A stretch of 32,325 nt of DNA from Marmoricola sp. Leaf446. GTDB taxonomy: Bacteria; Actinomycetota; Actinomycetes; Propionibacteriales; Nocardioidaceae. The stretch is taken from NCBI RefSeq assembly GCF_001424755.1, contig NZ_LMRF01000002.1, forward strand, positions 275,523 through 307,847. Reading direction: 5' to 3'. Positions within the stretch are counted from its first letter, which is position 1. Every line of letters begins with the position of its first letter. The position numbers and the translations under genes are program-made. The notes beneath the pieces are model-generated. The model saw only the letters and a list, made by a program, of their open reading frames with translations. It did no database searches and was not told the DNA's origin. Positions 18,461 through 25,050 of the stretch are shown here, piece by piece.

Positions 18461-19492
18461 ATGCCCATCGCCACCCCCGAGAAGTACGCCGAGATGCTCG
18501 ACACCGCGAAGTCGCAGGAGTTCGCCTTCCCGGCCATCAACGTCTCCTCGTCGCAGACCCTCAACGCCGCGCTGGCGGGGTTCGCCGATGCCGGGGCCGA
18601 CGGCATCATCCAGATCTCGACCGGCGGCGCGGAGTACCTCTCCGGCCCGACCGTCAAGGACATGGTCACCGGCTCGGTCGCCTTCGCGGCGTACGCCCGT
18701 GAGGTGGCGAAGAAGTACCCCGTCAACATCGCGCTCCACACCGACCACTGCCCCCAGGACAAGCTCGACGGCTTCGTCCGGCCGCTGCTCGAGCTGAGCA
18801 AGGAGCGCGTCGGCCGCGGCGAGGACCCGCTGTTCCAGAGCCACATGTGGGACGGCTCCGCGGTCCCGCTCGAGGAGAACCTCCAGATCGCCCGAGAGCT
18901 CCACCAGGCCTGCCAGGACGCCCGCATCATCCTCGAGATCGAGGTCGGCGTCGTCGGCGGCGAGGAGGACGGCGTCGACAACGAGATCAACGACAAGCTC
19001 TACTCCACCCCCGAGGACGCCATCGCCACCGCGAAGGCGCTCGGCCACGGCGACCACGGCTACTTCATGACCGCGCTGACCTTCGGCAACGTGCACGGCG
19101 TCTACAAGCCCGGCAACGTCAAGCTGCGCCCCTCGGTCCTCAAGGACGCCCAGGACGCCGTGGTGCAGGAGTTCAGCCTCGACGCCGGCTCCAAGCCCTT
19201 CCACCTGGTCTTCCACGGCGGCTCCGGCTCGACGCCGGAGGAGATCGCCGAGGCGCTGTCCTACGGCGTGGTGAAGATGAACGTCGACACCGACACCCAG
19301 TACGCCTTCACCCGCCCCGTCGCCGGCCACATGCTCGCCAACTACGAGGGCGTGCTGAAGATCGACGGCGAGGTCGGCAACAAGAAGCAGTACGACCCCC
19401 GCGCCTGGGGCAAGGCCGCCGAGGCCGGCATGGCCGCCCGCGTCGTCGAGGCCTGCGAGCACCTCCGCGCCTCCGGTCGCTCCATCGGCTGA
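18461..19492 (+). CDS. fba: Fructose-bisphosphate aldolase, class II
   Basis: Zinc-dependent aldolase that cleaves fructose-1,6-bisphosphate to dihydroxyacetone phosphate and glyceraldehyde-3-phosphate (and the reverse in gluconeogenesis). The 343 residues include the catalytic Asp and first zinc histidine in ALHTDHCPQD (D95, H96), the acidic stretch EIEVGVVGGEEDGV, a further zinc histidine in FGNVHGVYKPG, the phosphate-binding FHGGSGST and NVDTDTQYAF. Length and insertions fit the class IIA form used by actinobacteria. The ATG follows GAGGAG with 7-nt spacing. In many actinobacteria the DUF3151 gene follows close by; here it is displaced to 23725 by a cassette and a two-component system. Confidence 0.98.
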   Translation: MPIATPEKYAEMLDTAKSQEFAFPAINVSSSQTLNAALAGFADAGADGIIQISTGGAEYLSGPTVKDMVTGSVAFAAYAREVAKKYPVNIALHTDHCPQDKLDGFVRPLLELSKERVGRGEDPLFQSHMWDGSAVPLEENLQIARELHQACQDARIILEIEVGVVGGEEDGVDNEINDKLYSTPEDAIATAKALGHGDHGYFMTALTFGNVHGVYKPGNVKLRPSVLKDAQDAVVQEFSLDAGSKPFHLVFHGGSGSTPEEIAEALSYGVVKMNVDTDTQYAFTRPVAGHMLANYEGVLKIDGEVGNKKQYDPRAWGKAAEAGMAARVVEACEHLRASGRSIG

Positions 19493-19500
19493 CGGGGGCG

Positions 19501-19516
19501 GCCGCCGACGGGCGGC
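19501..19516 (+). terminator. Short GC stem after fba, possible terminator
   Basis: GCCGCC (19501-19506), loop GACG, GGCGGC (19511-19516), 8 nt after the fba stop, followed by a low-complexity GGCGC-rich stretch up to 19551. The stem is short and there is no T-run. Confidence 0.35.
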
Positions 19517-19551
19517 GGGGCGGCGCGGCGCGGCGGCGCGGCGTGGCGCGG

Positions 19552-19619
19552 CGTACCCCATGTAACGCGGAGTTATTGATTCTGAACAAGGGGCGTACGC
19601 CGCACTCGGGCACCACAGC
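19552..19619 (+). repeat. Left 68-bp inverted repeat of the cassette
   Basis: Matches the reverse complement of 20784-20851 at 60 of 68 positions without gaps. The outer half is best conserved: 15 identical bases (ATGTAACGCGGAGTT), one difference, then 15 identical bases (TTGATTCTGAACAAG). The inner half ends CACTCGGGCAC-N-ACAGC. Weak similarity continues inward for about 20 more bases. It includes TTATT-N7-AACAA, an imperfect version of the palindrome in the right arm. Confidence 0.95.
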
Positions 19620-19730
19620 GACGCGGTAGATGACTGATCGGTCGTCGACCGCACGGCGGCGTACGCCCGTCGTCCACAGGCGCCGCCGACCCCGGTTGAG
19701 CCCCGCGCTCGTGCGTCCGAGGGTGGGCGC

Positions 19731-20765
19731 ATGCGTCCCGCACTCCGAGCCCTCGCCGCGCAGCAGGGCGGCGTCGTCAGCCGTCGTCAGTGCCTCGCGG
19801 TCGGCTACACCGAGGTCGAGCTGCGCGGGCTGACCGCCGTGCACGGGCCGTGGGTGACGGTGCGGCGCGGGGTGTACGCCGAGCGCGAGCTGTGGGAGGC
19901 CGCGACCGGGTACGACGAACGGGCTCGCCTCCACGACCGGGCCGTGCACCTGATGACCGAGACCGAGCACGTGATGAGCCACGACTCGGCGGCCCGCGCG
20001 CTGCGGCTACCACTGCTGCAGCCGCGGCACGAGCTGAGCCACCTGACGCGGCCCGGAGTCGGTGGCAGCCGCACCGAGCGCGGGGTCAAGCACCACCTGA
20101 CCCGGGTGCCGCTCGGTGACACCGAGGTGGTCGACGACGTCGAGGTCACCGGGCTCGCCCGCACCGGTGTCGACGTGGCGCGGGAGCACGGGCTCGCCGC
20201 CGGCGTGGTCGCGCTCGACGCCGTGCTCGCCCGCGGAGCGTCCCGCCGTGCGCTCGAGCTCGAGACGACGGTGATGTGGTGCTGGCCCGGCGTCCGGACG
20301 GCGCGCGAGGCGGTCGCGCTGGCGGACGGTGGTGCCGAGTCGCCGGGGGAGAGCCTGACGAGGCTGCTGCTGGTCGAGCTCGGGCTGGGCCCGGTGGACA
20401 CGCAGTTCCCGGTGAGCGTGGGCGGCCGCGTCTACTGGGTCGACCACCGGGTGGGGTGTCACCTGGTCGAGTTCGACGGGCAGCTCAAGGTCCGTGGGGT
20501 CGCCGACGGTGGCGTCGCGACGAGACCGGCCGAGGACGTCCTGTGGGACGAGCGGCGACGTCAGGTGGCGATCTGCGGCGAAGGACTCGGCATGTCGCGG
20601 GTCGAGTGGGCCGACCTGTTCGGCAGCCGGCGGGAGGCGACCGGCCGGCGCATCCTCGCCGAGCACGCCGTCACTCGGGAGCGGTTCGGCGACCGGCTTC
20701 CCGACCACCTGGCCGAGCGAGCCGCGCTGATCCGGCGTACGACACCGCGGCGCCGGAGTGCCTGA
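19731..20765 (+). CDS. AbiEi-type winged-helix fused to PD-(D/E)XK nuclease-like (DUF559/Vsr-like) domain
   Basis: Protein of 344 residues. Residues 1-50 (LRALAAQQGGVVSRRQ..., then VRRGVYA) match the N-terminal winged helix of type IV antitoxins of the AbiEi group. The middle (50-200) resembles the antitoxin-like body found in these proteins. Residues 204-300 form a DUF559/Vsr-like nuclease core: SPGESLTRLLL with E207, then VDHR with D238, then VEFDGQLKV with E247, D249 and K253, then a WDERRRQVA helix and GEGLGMSRVEWADLF. No cognate AbiEii toxin is adjacent. Such proteins are multi-copy in Nocardioides-like genomes and their function is unknown. The ATG has a modest GAGGG at 19719-19723. The gene is exactly enclosed by the inverted repeats; the right repeat begins 18 nt after its stop. 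Confidence 0.75.
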   Translation: MRPALRALAAQQGGVVSRRQCLAVGYTEVELRGLTAVHGPWVTVRRGVYAERELWEAATGYDERARLHDRAVHLMTETEHVMSHDSAARALRLPLLQPRHELSHLTRPGVGGSRTERGVKHHLTRVPLGDTEVVDDVEVTGLARTGVDVAREHGLAAGVVALDAVLARGASRRALELETTVMWCWPGVRTAREAVALADGGAESPGESLTRLLLVELGLGPVDTQFPVSVGGRVYWVDHRVGCHLVEFDGQLKVRGVADGGVATRPAEDVLWDERRRQVAICGEGLGMSRVEWADLFGSRREATGRRILAEHAVTRERFGDRLPDHLAERAALIRRTTPRRRSA

Positions 20766-20783
20766 CCTCCCATCTGGTGCGGT

Positions 20784-20851
20784 GCTGTCGTGCCCGAGTG
20801 CGTGGTGTGCCGCTTGTTCAGAATCAACAACTCCGCGTTACATGCGGTACG
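20784..20851 (-). repeat. Right 68-bp inverted repeat of the cassette
   Basis: Reverse-complement partner of 19552-19619 (8 mismatches, no gaps). It contains a clean palindrome TTGTT-N7-AACAA at 20814-20830, which could be a binding site for the winged-helix domain encoded between the arms. It ends 15 bp before the TTCAG repeats of the downstream response-regulator gene. Confidence 0.95.
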
Positions 20852-20866
20852 GCGCCCCGCCCCACC

Positions 20867-20882
20867 TTCAGCCGACGTTCAG
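20867..20882 (+). promoter_or_regulatory. TTCAG direct repeats upstream of the response regulator
   Basis: TTCAG at 20867-20871 and 20878-20882, one helical turn (11 bp) apart. OmpR/PhoB-type regulators bind such tandem half-sites. The same half-site recurs upstream of the PepSY-like gene at the end of this gene set, so autoregulation by the encoded regulator is likely. Confidence 0.6.
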
Positions 20883-20927
20883 GGGGAGCCGGGAGGATGG
20901 CGGCTCCCTGCCCCCTGGAGGTGCCCG

Positions 20928-21605
20928 ATGCGTGTGCTCGTCGTGGACGACGAGGTGCGGCTGGCGCGCTCGCTCAAGGTGGGGCTGGTGGCGGAGGGGT
21001 TCGCGGTCGACGTCGCCCACGACGGGACCGACGGGCTGTGGCTGGCGCGCGAGCACCCGTATGACGCCATCGTGCTCGACCTGATGCTGCCGGGCATCAA
21101 CGGCTACAAGGTCTGCGAGACGCTGCGCGCGGAGGAGAACTGGACGCCCGTGCTGATGCTGACGGCCAAGGACGGCGAGTGGGACCAGGTCGAGGGGCTC
21201 GACACCGGGGCCGACGACTACCTCACCAAGCCGTTCTCCTTCCCGGTCCTGGTCGCGCGGCTGCGCGCGGTGGCGCGGCGCGGCGCGCGCGAGCGGCCCA
21301 CGCTGCTCGAGGCCGGCGACCTGCGGCTCGACCCGGCGGCGCGGCGGGCCTGGCGTGGTGAGGTCGAGCTCGACCTCACCACCCGGGAGTTCTCGCTGCT
21401 CGCCTTCCTGATGCGCCACCCCGGCGACGTCGTGTCCAAGCGGCAGATCCTGGACGCGGTGTGGGACGACAACTTCGAGGGCGACCCCAACATCGTCGAG
21501 GTCTACGTGCGGCACCTGCGCAACAAGCTCGACCGGCCGTTCGGCCGCGAGGCGATCGGCACGCTGCGGGGCGCGGGCTACCGGTTGGCGAGCGACGGTG
21601 GCTGA
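20928..21605 (+). CDS. OmpR-family response regulator
   Basis: DNA-binding response regulator of 225 residues. The receiver domain (1-115) has the acidic pair D7/D8, the phospho-acceptor D51 in IVLDLMLPG, T79 and K101 in LTKPFSF. The C-terminal winged helix (about 128-220) has LTTREFSLLAFLMRHPGDVV, the recognition-helix region NIVEVYVRHLRNKLD and the closing GAGYRL. The ATG follows GGAGG (20917-20921) with 6-nt spacing. The gene overlaps the kinase start by 8 nt, so the two proteins are made together. The TTCAG repeats upstream of this gene and of the secreted PepSY-like gene are the best candidates for its targets. Confidence 0.95.
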   Translation: MRVLVVDDEVRLARSLKVGLVAEGFAVDVAHDGTDGLWLAREHPYDAIVLDLMLPGINGYKVCETLRAEENWTPVLMLTAKDGEWDQVEGLDTGADDYLTKPFSFPVLVARLRAVARRGARERPTLLEAGDLRLDPAARRAWRGEVELDLTTREFSLLAFLMRHPGDVVSKRQILDAVWDDNFEGDPNIVEVYVRHLRNKLDRPFGREAIGTLRGAGYRLASDGG

Positions 21606-22944
21606 GCGCGGGCCCCGCGGGCTGGGCCGCGCCTCCGTCCGGGTCCGTACGACGCTCGCGGCCGTCCTCGTCGTCGCGGTCGCCCTCCTGGCCGGTGGCG
21701 TCGCCCTGGTGGTGCTCGTGCGCGGCGCGCTCGTCGACGGGCTGGAGTCGTCGGCCGAGCAGCGCGCGGACACCCTGGCCGCCCAGGTCGGCTCGACCGA
21801 GACGCCCGGGAGCGGCGCGGGCGACGACGAGGGCGAGGTCGACGACCTCGAGGACGAGGTGTGGCAGGTCCAGGACGGCGAGGGCCGCGTGGTCGGCTCC
21901 TCGCAGCCGCTGTCCCGGCCGCTGCCGGCGCGCGACGCCGACGCGGTGCGGCTGCCCGGCGGCGACGCGGCGTACCTCGTGGTGACCGAGAGCGCCGGCG
22001 ACTACCGCGTCGTCGTGGCGGTCAGCCGCGAGGAGGTCGAGGACTCGGTCGCCGCGCTCGTGCCGCTGCTGCTGGTCGGGCTGCCGGCGCTGCTGCTGCT
22101 CGTGGGCGGCACCACCTGGGTGGTCGTGACCCGCGCGCTGCGTCCGGTGGAGCGGATCCGCCAGGAGGTCGAGCAGATCACCGGCGACCGGCTCGACCGA
22201 CGGGTGCCCGAGCCGCCGTCGCGTGACGAGGTGCACCGGCTCGCGCACACCATGAACGGCATGCTCGCGCGGCTGCAGGCCGCCCAGGAGCGGCAGCGCC
22301 AGTTCGTCGGCGACGCCTCCCACGAGCTCCGCTCACCGCTCGCCGGCATCCGGCAGACCGCCGAGGTCGCGCGGGCCCACCCGGGCGCCATGCCCGAGGG
22401 CGAGCTCGCCGACGCGGTGCTGGAGGAGTCGGTGCGGATGCAGCGGCTCGTCGAGCAGCTGCTGCTGCTCACGCGGGCCGACGAGGCCGCCGTCGCGGCG
22501 CAGCGGCGCGAGGTCGACCTCGACGACCTGGTGCTCACCGAGGCCAGGCGCGTACGCCGCACCGGCCTCGACGTCGACGGCTCCGGCATCGCCACCGCCC
22601 GGGTCCGCGGCGACGAGACCGCGCTGGCGCAGGTGGTGCGCAACCTCGTCGACAACGCCGCCCGCCACGCCACCTCCCGCATCGGTCTCGGCGTGCGCGA
22701 GGACGCCGGCACCGCGGAGGTCGTCGTCGACGACGACGGCGGCGGCATCGCCCCGGCCGACCGCGACCGGGTCTTCGAGCGCTTCGTGCGGCTCGACGAG
22801 TCCCGCGCCCGCGACGACGGCGGCAGCGGCCTCGGGCTGAGCATCGTGCGCGAGATCGTGCGCGTGCACGGCGGGACGGTCGAGATCGGCACCTCGCCCT
22901 GGGGCGGCGCCCGGTTCACCGTGCGCCTCCCGGCCGCCACCTGA
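21598..22944 (+). CDS. Membrane sensor histidine kinase
   Basis: Sensor kinase of 448 residues. It has a membrane segment near 18-42, an extracytoplasmic sensor region (about 43-150) rich in Asp and Glu around 72-90, a second membrane segment (about 153-178), a HAMP domain (180-232), a HisKA domain with the phospho-acceptor H242 in GDASHELRSPLAG, and an ATPase domain with N-box NLVDNAARHA (349-358), DDDGGGIAP (378-386) and the G2 box GGSGLGLS (408-415). The GTG start overlaps the regulator gene. The acidic sensor loop and the secreted acidic PepSY-like protein encoded next suggest sensing of cations, cationic peptides or envelope stress; that is inference. Confidence 0.95.
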   Translation: MAERGPRGLGRASVRVRTTLAAVLVVAVALLAGGVALVVLVRGALVDGLESSAEQRADTLAAQVGSTETPGSGAGDDEGEVDDLEDEVWQVQDGEGRVVGSSQPLSRPLPARDADAVRLPGGDAAYLVVTESAGDYRVVVAVSREEVEDSVAALVPLLLVGLPALLLLVGGTTWVVVTRALRPVERIRQEVEQITGDRLDRRVPEPPSRDEVHRLAHTMNGMLARLQAAQERQRQFVGDASHELRSPLAGIRQTAEVARAHPGAMPEGELADAVLEESVRMQRLVEQLLLLTRADEAAVAAQRREVDLDDLVLTEARRVRRTGLDVDGSGIATARVRGDETALAQVVRNLVDNAARHATSRIGLGVREDAGTAEVVVDDDGGGIAPADRDRVFERFVRLDESRARDDGGSGLGLSIVREIVRVHGGTVEIGTSPWGGARFTVRLPAAT

Positions 22945-23663: not shown

Positions 23664-23705
23664 CGAGGAGGCCCACCCACCCTGCGGGGCGGGTGGGCCT
23701 CCTCG
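23664..23705 (+). terminator. Strong 15-bp hairpin terminator after the PepSY-like gene
   Basis: CGAGGAGGCCCACCC (23664-23678) pairs perfectly with GGGTGGGCCTCCTCG (23691-23705) around a 12-nt loop, starting 20 nt after the stop. There is no T-run, but the stem is the longest perfect one in the window. It insulates the two-component unit from the DUF3151 gene. Confidence 0.8.
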
Positions 23706-23724
23706 CGCGTGGGAGCATCGAGCC

Positions 23725-24141
23725 ATGACCCTTGGACGTGACCTGATGGCCGGACCCCCGCCCACCGAGCTGCCGCAGGACCCCGCGGCCACCGAGCTGG
23801 AGTCCGGCGCCCCGGCCGCCGAGGTCGTGCGCCGCCACCCCGAGTCGCCGCTGGCCTGGGCCACCCTGGCCGAGGCCGCGCTGGCCGACGGCGAGGTCGA
23901 CGACGTGACGGCCTACGCCTACGCCCGCGTCGGCTACCACCGCAGCCTGGACTCCCTGCGCCGCAACGGCTGGAAGGGCCACGGCCCGGTGCCGTGGTCG
24001 CACGAGCCCAACCGCGGCTTCCTGCGGGCCCTGGCCGCGCTCACCACCGCCGCCGGCCGCATCGGCGAGGACCACGAGCAGCAGCGCTGCGCCGACTTCC
24101 TGCGCGACTCCAGCCCCGAGGCCGCCGACCAGCTCCTCTGA
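23725..24141 (+). CDS. DUF3151 family protein
   Basis: Conserved actinobacterial protein of 138 residues with no assigned function. Recognisable conserved stretches are LGRDLMAGPPPTELP at the N terminus, SPLAWATLAEAAL (about 48-60), AYAYARVGYHRSLDSLRRNGW (split by the 20-residue limit here into AYAYARVGYHR and SLDSLRRNGWKGHGPVPW), PNRGFLRALAALTTAAG and the C-terminal CADFLRDSSPEA. The helical repeats look TPR-like. In Mycobacterium and many other actinobacteria the homologue lies close to fba and purA, so its position here marks where the conserved gene order resumes after the cassette and two-component system. No clear Shine-Dalgarno was seen. Confidence 0.9.
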   Translation: MTLGRDLMAGPPPTELPQDPAATELESGAPAAEVVRRHPESPLAWATLAEAALADGEVDDVTAYAYARVGYHRSLDSLRRNGWKGHGPVPWSHEPNRGFLRALAALTTAAGRIGEDHEQQRCADFLRDSSPEAADQLL

Positions 24142-24147
24142 GCGGGC

Positions 24148-25050
24148 TCAGGCGGGCGGCACGACCATGGAGTACGCCGCCCGCTCCAGGTGCCACGACC
24201 GGCGCCGCTCGGGCCCGTTGATCTCGCCGTCGGCCGAGAGGTAGAAGTCCTCGCCGCTGATGGTCACCTGCGTGGCCCGGGCGGTGAGCACGTCGTCGCG
24301 CTCCTGGTGCTTGCCCAGCACCAGCTCGCCGACGTAGGCGAACCGCTCCAGCGGCCCGGTCGCCAGCGAGACCATCACGTCGAGCCGGCCGTCCTCGGGG
24401 TCGGCGTCGGGCGTCAGCTCGGTGCCGCCGCCGACGCTGGCGCCGTTGCCGATGGCGACCATGAGGGTCGGCCGGTCGACGTCGACGAGGATCTCGCCGT
24501 CGACCTCGATCCGCAGCCGGACGTACGGCGGCCGGAACGCCGCCAACGCCGCCCCGACCGGGTAGCCGAGGATGCCGATCCCGAACGGCCCCAGCCGCTT
24601 CTTCCACCGGGCACCGCGCCGGCTGGCCTGGGCGCTGGCGCCGGCGTGCACGTTGTTGACCACCACGCCGCCGAGCTCGTCGACGACGAGGTCCATCGGC
24701 CGGACCTCGCCGGTGAGCACCGTGCGCGCCGCCTCCTGGGGGTCCAGGGGGATGCCGAGCGAGCGGGCGAAGTCGTTGCCGGTGCCGAGCGGCAGCAGGC
24801 CGATCGTCCGCTTGCCGAGCTCGTGGCGCTTGTAGAGCGCCTTCACGACCGCGTGCAGGCTGCCGTCGCCGCCGGCCACCACCAGGCGGCGGCACCCCGC
24901 GCGGTGCAGCACCCCGTCGAGCTCGCCGGGGTTGGACGTGCGGGCGACCTCGACGTCGGCCTCGGCCCGCAGGACCTCGAGGGCCGCCTGCAGGGCGTCG
25001 CGCTCGCCACCGCCGGCCTCGGCGTTGGCGATCACGAGAAGGGGGTCCAC
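24148..25050 (-). CDS. Diacylglycerol kinase / lipid kinase family protein
   Basis: Soluble lipid kinase of the DagK/YegS family that phosphorylates diacylglycerol or a related lipid with ATP, feeding phosphatidate back to phospholipid synthesis. The 300 residues contain the nucleotide-binding VVAGGDGSLHAVV (about 57-69, GGDGS at 60-64), the GTGNDFARSLGIP motif (89-101), the mid-domain VVVNNVHAG and MVAIGNGASVGGG, and the C-terminal GEDFYLSADGEI. Those are the DAGK catalytic-domain signatures; no membrane segment is present. The GTG start is supported by TAGGGT 6 nt upstream, suggesting a leaderless transcript. It is convergent with the DUF3151 gene (stops 6 nt apart) and divergent from purA. 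Confidence 0.92.
   Translation of the reverse strand: MDPLLVIANAEAGGGERDALQAALEVLRAEADVEVARTSNPGELDGVLHRAGCRRLVVAGGDGSLHAVVKALYKRHELGKRTIGLLPLGTGNDFARSLGIPLDPQEAARTVLTGEVRPMDLVVDELGGVVVNNVHAGASAQASRRGARWKKRLGPFGIGILGYPVGAALAAFRPPYVRLRIEVDGEILVDVDRPTLMVAIGNGASVGGGTELTPDADPEDGRLDVMVSLATGPLERFAYVGELVLGKHQERDDVLTARATQVTISGEDFYLSADGEINGPERRRSWHLERAAYSMVVPPA

Follow-up and report, generated by a model that had tools for sequence, protein, structure and literature searches.

An AbiEi-type winged-helix gene with a putative nuclease core is paired with dispersed extragenic palindromes in the Nocardioidaceae: a candidate counterpart of REP/RAYT systems

The window analyzed here is a 32,325-nucleotide stretch of the Marmoricola sp. 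Leaf446 genome in which one gene is enclosed by two palindromic elements in inverted orientation. Their features, and those of the adjoining genes, are provided in Table 1. The sequence-only reading that drew attention to the locus had described a match between positions 19552-19619 and the reverse complement of 20784-20851. That match proved accurate, with 60 of 68 positions identical, against best matches of 40-44 of 68 in 20 triplet-block shuffles of positions 18501-22000. A repeat search of the region returned 19540-19632 with 20771-20863 as its longest inverted pair. The true unit, whose ends are set by copies elsewhere, is ∼74 bp in length, and 62 of its 74 positions match between the two arms. 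It reads CATGTAACGCGG...AGATG. The single gene reported between the arms is indeed the only one there; it begins 98 bp past the left element and ends 5 bp before the right one.

Table 1. Features of the locus (positions in the window)
Feature	Position	Strand	Remarks
fba (fructose-bisphosphate aldolase), conserved left neighbor	18461..19492	+	name from the sequence-only reading and from reading of the sequence
Left palindromic element, 74 bp	19559..19632	+	conserved outer end faces fba; core GTAACGCGGAGTT at 19562
AbiEi-type winged helix with putative PD-(D/E)XK (Vsr-like) core, 344 aa	19731..20765	+	invariant E207, D238, E247, K253
Right palindromic element, 74 bp, inverted	20771..20844	-	outer end faces the response regulator; core GTAACGCGGAGTT, - strand, at 20829
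Two-component response regulator, right neighbor	20934..21605	+	5' side, not 3' end, faces the right element; named by sequence reading

The 74-bp palindromes are imperfect. The outer end is strongly conserved (CATGTAACGCGGAGTTATTGATTCTGAACAAGG), with a degenerate mirror copy of it at the inner end. By reading, the termini are CATG/CTTG-GTAAC, and in the more symmetrical copies (L010, L033, and L054) a terminal repeat of ∼20 bp is similar at both ends. Two sequences, one typical and one symmetrical, were folded. The symmetrical copy beats its shuffles (z of -4.49), and a typical copy of this genome is no better than its own (z of 0.92), so that a single-strand hairpin was rejected as a general feature. 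No Rfam model matched within positions 19000-21500.

The N-terminal region of the enclosed protein was assigned to AbiEi by PADLOC (5e-13). With Pfam, the AbiEi_4 model scored 23.4 bits on the window protein, just below its 25-bit cutoff, and no other model matched; 61 of 62 aligned relatives (alignment A1) match AbiEi_4 at E ≤ 1. Following the winged helix is a region in which E207, D238, E247, and K253 are each completely conserved (1.0) in 93 intact orthologs, L126 and L131 having been excluded for internal stops, and are likewise invariant in the 62 sequences of A1. Such an arrangement of E, D, E, and K is the layout of the PD-(D/E)XK nucleases. The Pfam DUF559 model does not match the window protein, no Pfam nuclease model matches the 62 aligned relatives, and a comparison with solved structures gave no meaningful match to the nuclease-like protein. 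In two distant relatives, weak, below-cutoff matches to PF18741 were observed (9.2e-5 and 0.016), a domain described as having the Vsr REase fold (PMC3710099). Given invariant residues without a direct Pfam nuclease match, and only these weak matches in distant relatives, a PD-(D/E)XK nuclease fold for the protein is considered probable. Of the original description as AbiEi joined to a DUF559/Vsr-like core, the AbiEi part is upheld, DUF559 is not, and the Vsr-type core is best called putative.

The H-hydrophobic-H (HUH) motif is absent from the window protein and occurs somewhere in five of the 93 orthologs. No transposase was seen among the predicted proteins of the window, as judged by their first residues alone, and the one enclosed protein has no transposase-like Pfam match. 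Likewise, an AbiEii-type partner was not present among the neighbors that were read, namely fba and the response regulator, both named by sequence reading.

Orthologs at E ≤ 1e-40 are present in 152 of 341 Nocardioidaceae genomes. With six candidates scored per genome, one match was recorded in 121 of these, two in 29, and three in two; the genome of the window (G000) contains one close copy. Ninety-five loci were examined, 35 from the ortholog searches and 60 taken in score order. Passed over were some second copies, matches on short contigs, and others (for example G247:C6, G284, G311, and G186:C62, and likewise G322, G288, G301, and G189), together with all those ranked below G157. An inverted repeat common to both flanks, scoring above every shuffle, surrounds 91 of the 95. 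With a stricter cut and full flanks (L152 and L216, with flanks under 450 bp, were dropped), a matched repeat pair brackets 90 of 93 orthologs, the exceptions being L157, L164, and L203. Of 170 control genes taken from the same stretches, three pass as well, all of them near the nuclease gene, in L212, L218, and L219. The expectation that orthologs elsewhere would carry matched arms is thereby borne out. Inverted orientation scored better than direct in 56 of the 95 loci, but near-perfect palindromes are so common among the elements that this comparison is uninformative. Twelve background paralogs proved unsuitable as a control, inasmuch as nine exceed their shuffles (L146 barely) and eight pass a cut of 22. 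Two relatives, L134 and L146, combine an EYDG..H form with an MTES_1575 match and have no clear brackets, their flanks showing either no repeat pair or one barely over shuffles (scores of 12.4 and 18.6); bracketed paralogs show EFDGxxKY.

Bracketing extends beyond the family. In a phylum sample of 396 genomes, 22 paralogs (E ≤ 1e-20) were found in 11 genomes, and 21 of them have matched flanking repeats at the cut of 22, with one doubtful (L276). Sixteen of the 22 are from outside the Nocardioidaceae, and 15 of these pass. The window genome itself has at least four other members of this wider gene family, and each of the four is bracketed. Among the matches listed, the elements of two of the four are dispersed (about 12 and 14 places), one is thin (two places), and one is doubtful (one weak match).

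The bracket sequences vary widely from species to species. In 67 of the 95 loci, each side of the gene carries a common GTAAC-N5-GT(T/C) core, as compared with 3 of 95 shuffled upstream flanks; the remaining 28 are without GTAAC-N5-GT on at least one side. The N5 is common to both brackets in 61 of the 67 loci, whereas random pairs of loci agree in 9.2%. When placed on the gene tree, 22 N5 types over 59 loci require at least 35 changes, fewer than the mean of 45 and minimum of 41 for shuffled labels, and N5 thus appears to turn over fast with some inheritance. These flank comparisons establish, at the level of sequence, that orthologs and paralogs possess their own palindromes. Note that G009 contains two copies of the gene (L119 and L135) with different brackets, the N5 being GCGGG in one and the other having a GTAAATCGGGGTT-type end.

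That the arms are multi-copy, as had been supposed, is clear from the 3.81-Mb genome of the window, in which the element pattern occurs at 11 places with three or fewer mismatches and at none when read backwards. Nine of the 11 lie away from the gene, as pairs around an echA-like (enoyl-CoA-hydratase-like) and a HAD-like gene and as five singles; these names and that of the GNAT-type gene below come from sequence reading. In 10 of the 11 window-family elements the outer end is within 66 bp of a stop codon, which one of these ten overlaps. A search of genome contigs for the pattern gave three stretches, of which two belong to a Marmoricola MAG; the third, in a Prevotella-labeled contig of 45% GC, has one exact core match (L065) that was set aside as probably due to chance.

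Dispersal was then surveyed in 20 genomes of the Nocardioidaceae. Twenty loci, one per genome, each contributed a bracket to a single joined query. All 20 genomes were matched, 6 to 28 times each with 17 candidates scored per genome, counts that include the brackets themselves and both strands of the palindromes. Among the matches listed, every piece matched was that of the genome's own gene bracket (20 genomes, by eye), and the bracket repeat was also present away from the gene in 17 of the 20; G133, G142, and G203 showed only the brackets themselves. For the window genome, 27 dispersed copies (28 entries, one a duplicate) were compared with the coding calls of a simple gene caller. None lies mainly in predicted coding sequence, and two overlap a gene end by 3 bp. 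Nine occupy convergent, 16 tandem, and two divergent gaps; divergent gaps account for 35% of the non-coding bases in the stretches examined. With the nuclease-gene brackets ignored, pairs of elements no more than ∼1.5 kb apart were found in G009 (four), G002 (four), and G000 (two), and all ten face outwards, eight of them independent because two positions are common to G000 and G009. The placement of these copies demonstrates dispersal of the same palindrome in non-coding sequence.

Repeats of the window's type were recognized by pattern in 18 of the 341 genomes, and 16 of the 18 contain the ortholog, as compared with 152 of 341 overall (hypergeometric P of 9e-5, a value that ignores genome kinship). 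Neither of the two exceptions, G017 and G260, has an intact close gene to go with its elements, and both may represent losses. In G017 the closest match (L133, G017:C118:5592) is a fragment, and three element places remain, a situation resembling RAYT loss.

Sites that can be compared across genomes provide a further link between gene and palindrome. In G002 and G003 the gene brackets have an N5 of GCTCC, and TGTAACGCTCCGTT is found in only these two of 24 genomes of the genus, at seven loci in each with the brackets included. At the 5' junction of echA, the N5 is GCGGA in G000, GCGGG in G009, and GCTCC in both G002 and G003, in all four cases that of the genome's own gene brackets. Two more shared sites have an N5 that follows the local gene (G009:3298251/G003:3669309 and G009:3624726/G003:3347998). 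Across these genomes of the genus, the repeat type at dispersed sites demonstrably switches along with that of the gene brackets. The coupling is not strict, for in G002 nine GCGG-type places persist although the brackets are GCTCC. A comparison of six orthologous elements of G000 and G009 revealed identities of 0.766 for the same site and 0.752 for different sites, whereas within-genome identities are higher, at 0.856 and 0.820. The 3' site of echA is an exception, with an identity of 0.88 between the two genomes.

Gain or loss of elements was likewise observed. At one site (s1), an element is present in G000 and absent from G009 and G003, and the echA 3' site, filled in G000 and G009, is devoid of such a core in G002 and G003. 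At the echA 5' junction, G006, G015, and G018, all of which lack an ortholog at 1e-40, have no recognizable element. By eye, other palindrome-like sequences are present at this junction in G008, G013, and G010 (L281, L282, and L283), and it may be a hot spot used by several families of repeats. No target duplication or exact insertion point could be defined, s1 included; divergence of the intergenic sequence precludes delimiting exact element ends or duplications.

Its neighbors indicate that the gene itself often stays where it is and is now and then inverted or relocated. An fba homolog lies upstream of 24 of the 95 orthologs, co-directional in 18 and opposite in six, which is a lower bound given that the loci carried 1.5-kb or 3-kb flanks. 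The 95 orthologs fall into 26 neighborhood clusters, 19 of them singletons. In G009, G002, and G003 the gene adjoins the same fba as in the window, with differing repeats. An empty fba-regulator junction, which the sequence-only reading had said would support its proposal if present in sister strains, was not found. Among gene-less genomes both sides were matched only in G013, ∼391 kb apart, and G006, G010, G015, and G018 were matched on the fba side only.

Taken together, it is almost certain that the gene and the palindrome family belong together. A role of the protein in cutting and driving these repeats is also probable, in view of the coupled repeat types, the concerted evolution of the elements, and the invariant catalytic residues. 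Indeed, action of the protein on its own repeats, as originally envisaged, is the best reading of the coupled types, although the cutting is inferred. We regard as likely, from sequence comparison, a two-part selfish partnership of the REP/RAYT kind, in which an unrelated nuclease cuts, spreads, and homogenizes its palindromes. Such a partnership would consist of a nuclease gene, usually single-copy, and a family of 70-100 bp extragenic palindromes recognized by its product. The AbiEi-type winged helix would bind GTAAC-N5-GTT half-sites, with N5 as the specificity determinant, and the PD-(D/E)XK core would nick or cut at the bound palindrome. Repair templated by another element would make the elements uniform in sequence, and from time to time a misplaced repair or an insertion would put a new copy into a permissive gap of non-coding DNA. 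The gene would seldom move, its brackets being the source copies. Independent insertion at hot spots could mimic such in-place conversion.

Several other explanations were weighed against this partnership. The sequence-only reading had favored a single mobile cassette, a transposon or homing unit in which the gene and arms move jointly, with the protein doing the cutting or with movement supplied in trans. The number of neighborhood clusters and singletons, the flips of orientation beside fba, and the two differently bracketed copies in G009 speak for such a unit, and to that extent the proposal survives. It is, nonetheless, unlikely. Other element pairs enclose nothing or a different gene (echA, one of HAD type, or one of GNAT type); the gene is missing from the nine other places in the window genome, where the copies flank unrelated genes or stand alone; and a single match was the rule (121 of 152 genomes, with six candidates scored in each), as for the one close copy here. 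The retention of the same fba site in G009, G002, and G003 with differing repeats also argues against it. Arms at gene-less sites, and a gene with differently typed arms in relatives, are observations that the sequence-only reading had itself named as contrary to its proposal, and they tell against it in part.

Somewhat less probable still is the possibility that the palindromes are host operators, terminators, or chromosome-organizing sites, with the protein as their regulator and the types co-evolving. A winged helix of the AbiEi type, the proximity of 10 of 11 elements to stop codons, and the coupling of N5 between the gene brackets and distant sites are all compatible with such a role, but an element type confined to 18 of 341 genomes is not readily so, and a regulator would leave unexplained the 74-bp identity, the invariant catalytic residues, and the within-genome likeness beyond the core. 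If the palindromes were instead miniature transposons moved in trans by an unrelated transposase, the gene would be a trapped passenger. That repeats of very different types should bracket a passenger in 90 of 93 cases, or that repeat type should be coupled to it, would not be expected, and this explanation is judged quite improbable in spite of the ∼20-bp terminal inverted repeats of some copies and the existence of sites without the element. Finally, the AbiEi-like domain might indicate a defense nuclease for which the dispersed palindromes mark self DNA. Eleven copies in 3.8 Mb seem too sparse for self-marking, the neighbors that were read include no AbiEii-type partner, and viral contigs contain no exact match to the element pattern; there is accordingly very little likelihood of such a function.

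The REP/RAYT-like partnership is best appreciated by comparison with known systems. RAYT transposases are HUH/Y1 enzymes related to IS200/IS605. REPs or REPINs together with RAYTs (REPtrons) show the same arrangement as here, namely a nuclease gene between cognate palindromes that are extragenic, species-specific, and found as inverted pairs, and they likewise include syntenic genes with differing repeats (orthoswitch) (PMC3116915, PMC3686654, PMC3733652). As with REPs, the gene is flanked by a dispersed palindrome and the repeats are extragenic. The outward-facing close pairs resemble REPINs as presented in PMC3116915, and the nine GCGG-type places left in G002 resemble the orthoswitch remnants of REPs described in PMC3686654. 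The differences reside in the protein, which is an AbiEi winged helix with a putative PD-(D/E)XK core and without the HUH motif, and in the elements, which are 70-100 bp rather than the 20-40 bp of REPs and, by reading, show no GTAG/GGAG tag at their ends. TIRtrons, as described in PMC3733652, are RAYT-like HUH genes flanked by unrelated terminal inverted repeats, some of which are genome-repeated; they share with the present system inverted repeats around a gene, but their enzymes are still HUH transposases.

The AbiE type IV toxin-antitoxin systems have a similar winged-helix N-terminus in AbiEi, whereas here no AbiEii is found among the neighbors that were read and a nuclease-like core is added. 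With the Vsr, DUF559, and MTES_1575-type endonucleases the protein shares the layout of its invariant E, D, E, and K; it differs in having no direct Pfam nuclease match, and the relatives that do match MTES_1575 are without a clear repeat pair. Unlike an insertion sequence or composite transposon, the repeats enclose no transposase, and no target duplication can be defined at s1. MITEs and mobile insertion cassettes are short inverted-repeat elements without a transposase, whereas the repeat families described here go together with a specific family of genes. No published equivalent of the gene-repeat pairing was recognized in the open-access PMC full text, and none of the repeat-spreading systems found there uses such an enzyme.

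The pairing provides a candidate function for a large, unexplained family of AbiEi-winged-helix/nuclease genes, of which this genome has at least five, and ties that family to repeat families not found named in the open-access literature. If the nuclease drives its repeats, the REP/RAYT arrangement has been built twice from unrelated enzymes, dozens of naturally occurring protein and DNA-site pairs whose specificity has switched would be at hand, and the spread and sequence likeness of short bacterial palindromes would have a testable model. There is perhaps an even chance that Actinobacteria independently evolved an equivalent of REP/RAYT in which copies of a PD-(D/E)XK nuclease convert their cognate palindromes by an intragenomic homing drive, with N5 switching fast. 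Such a drive, if real, would make sense of the large number of unexplained AbiEi/DUF559-like genes in each genome.

One further observation, made at G003:C1:3357234 (L355) and L106:6173, concerns the region to the right of the gene. In G003, the right flank of the gene matches window positions 23695-24148, and the response regulator/histidine kinase block that lies 3' of the gene in G000 is missing there. An old-type element is present at that spot in G002, which suggests that a deletion from element to element lies behind the missing block in G003.
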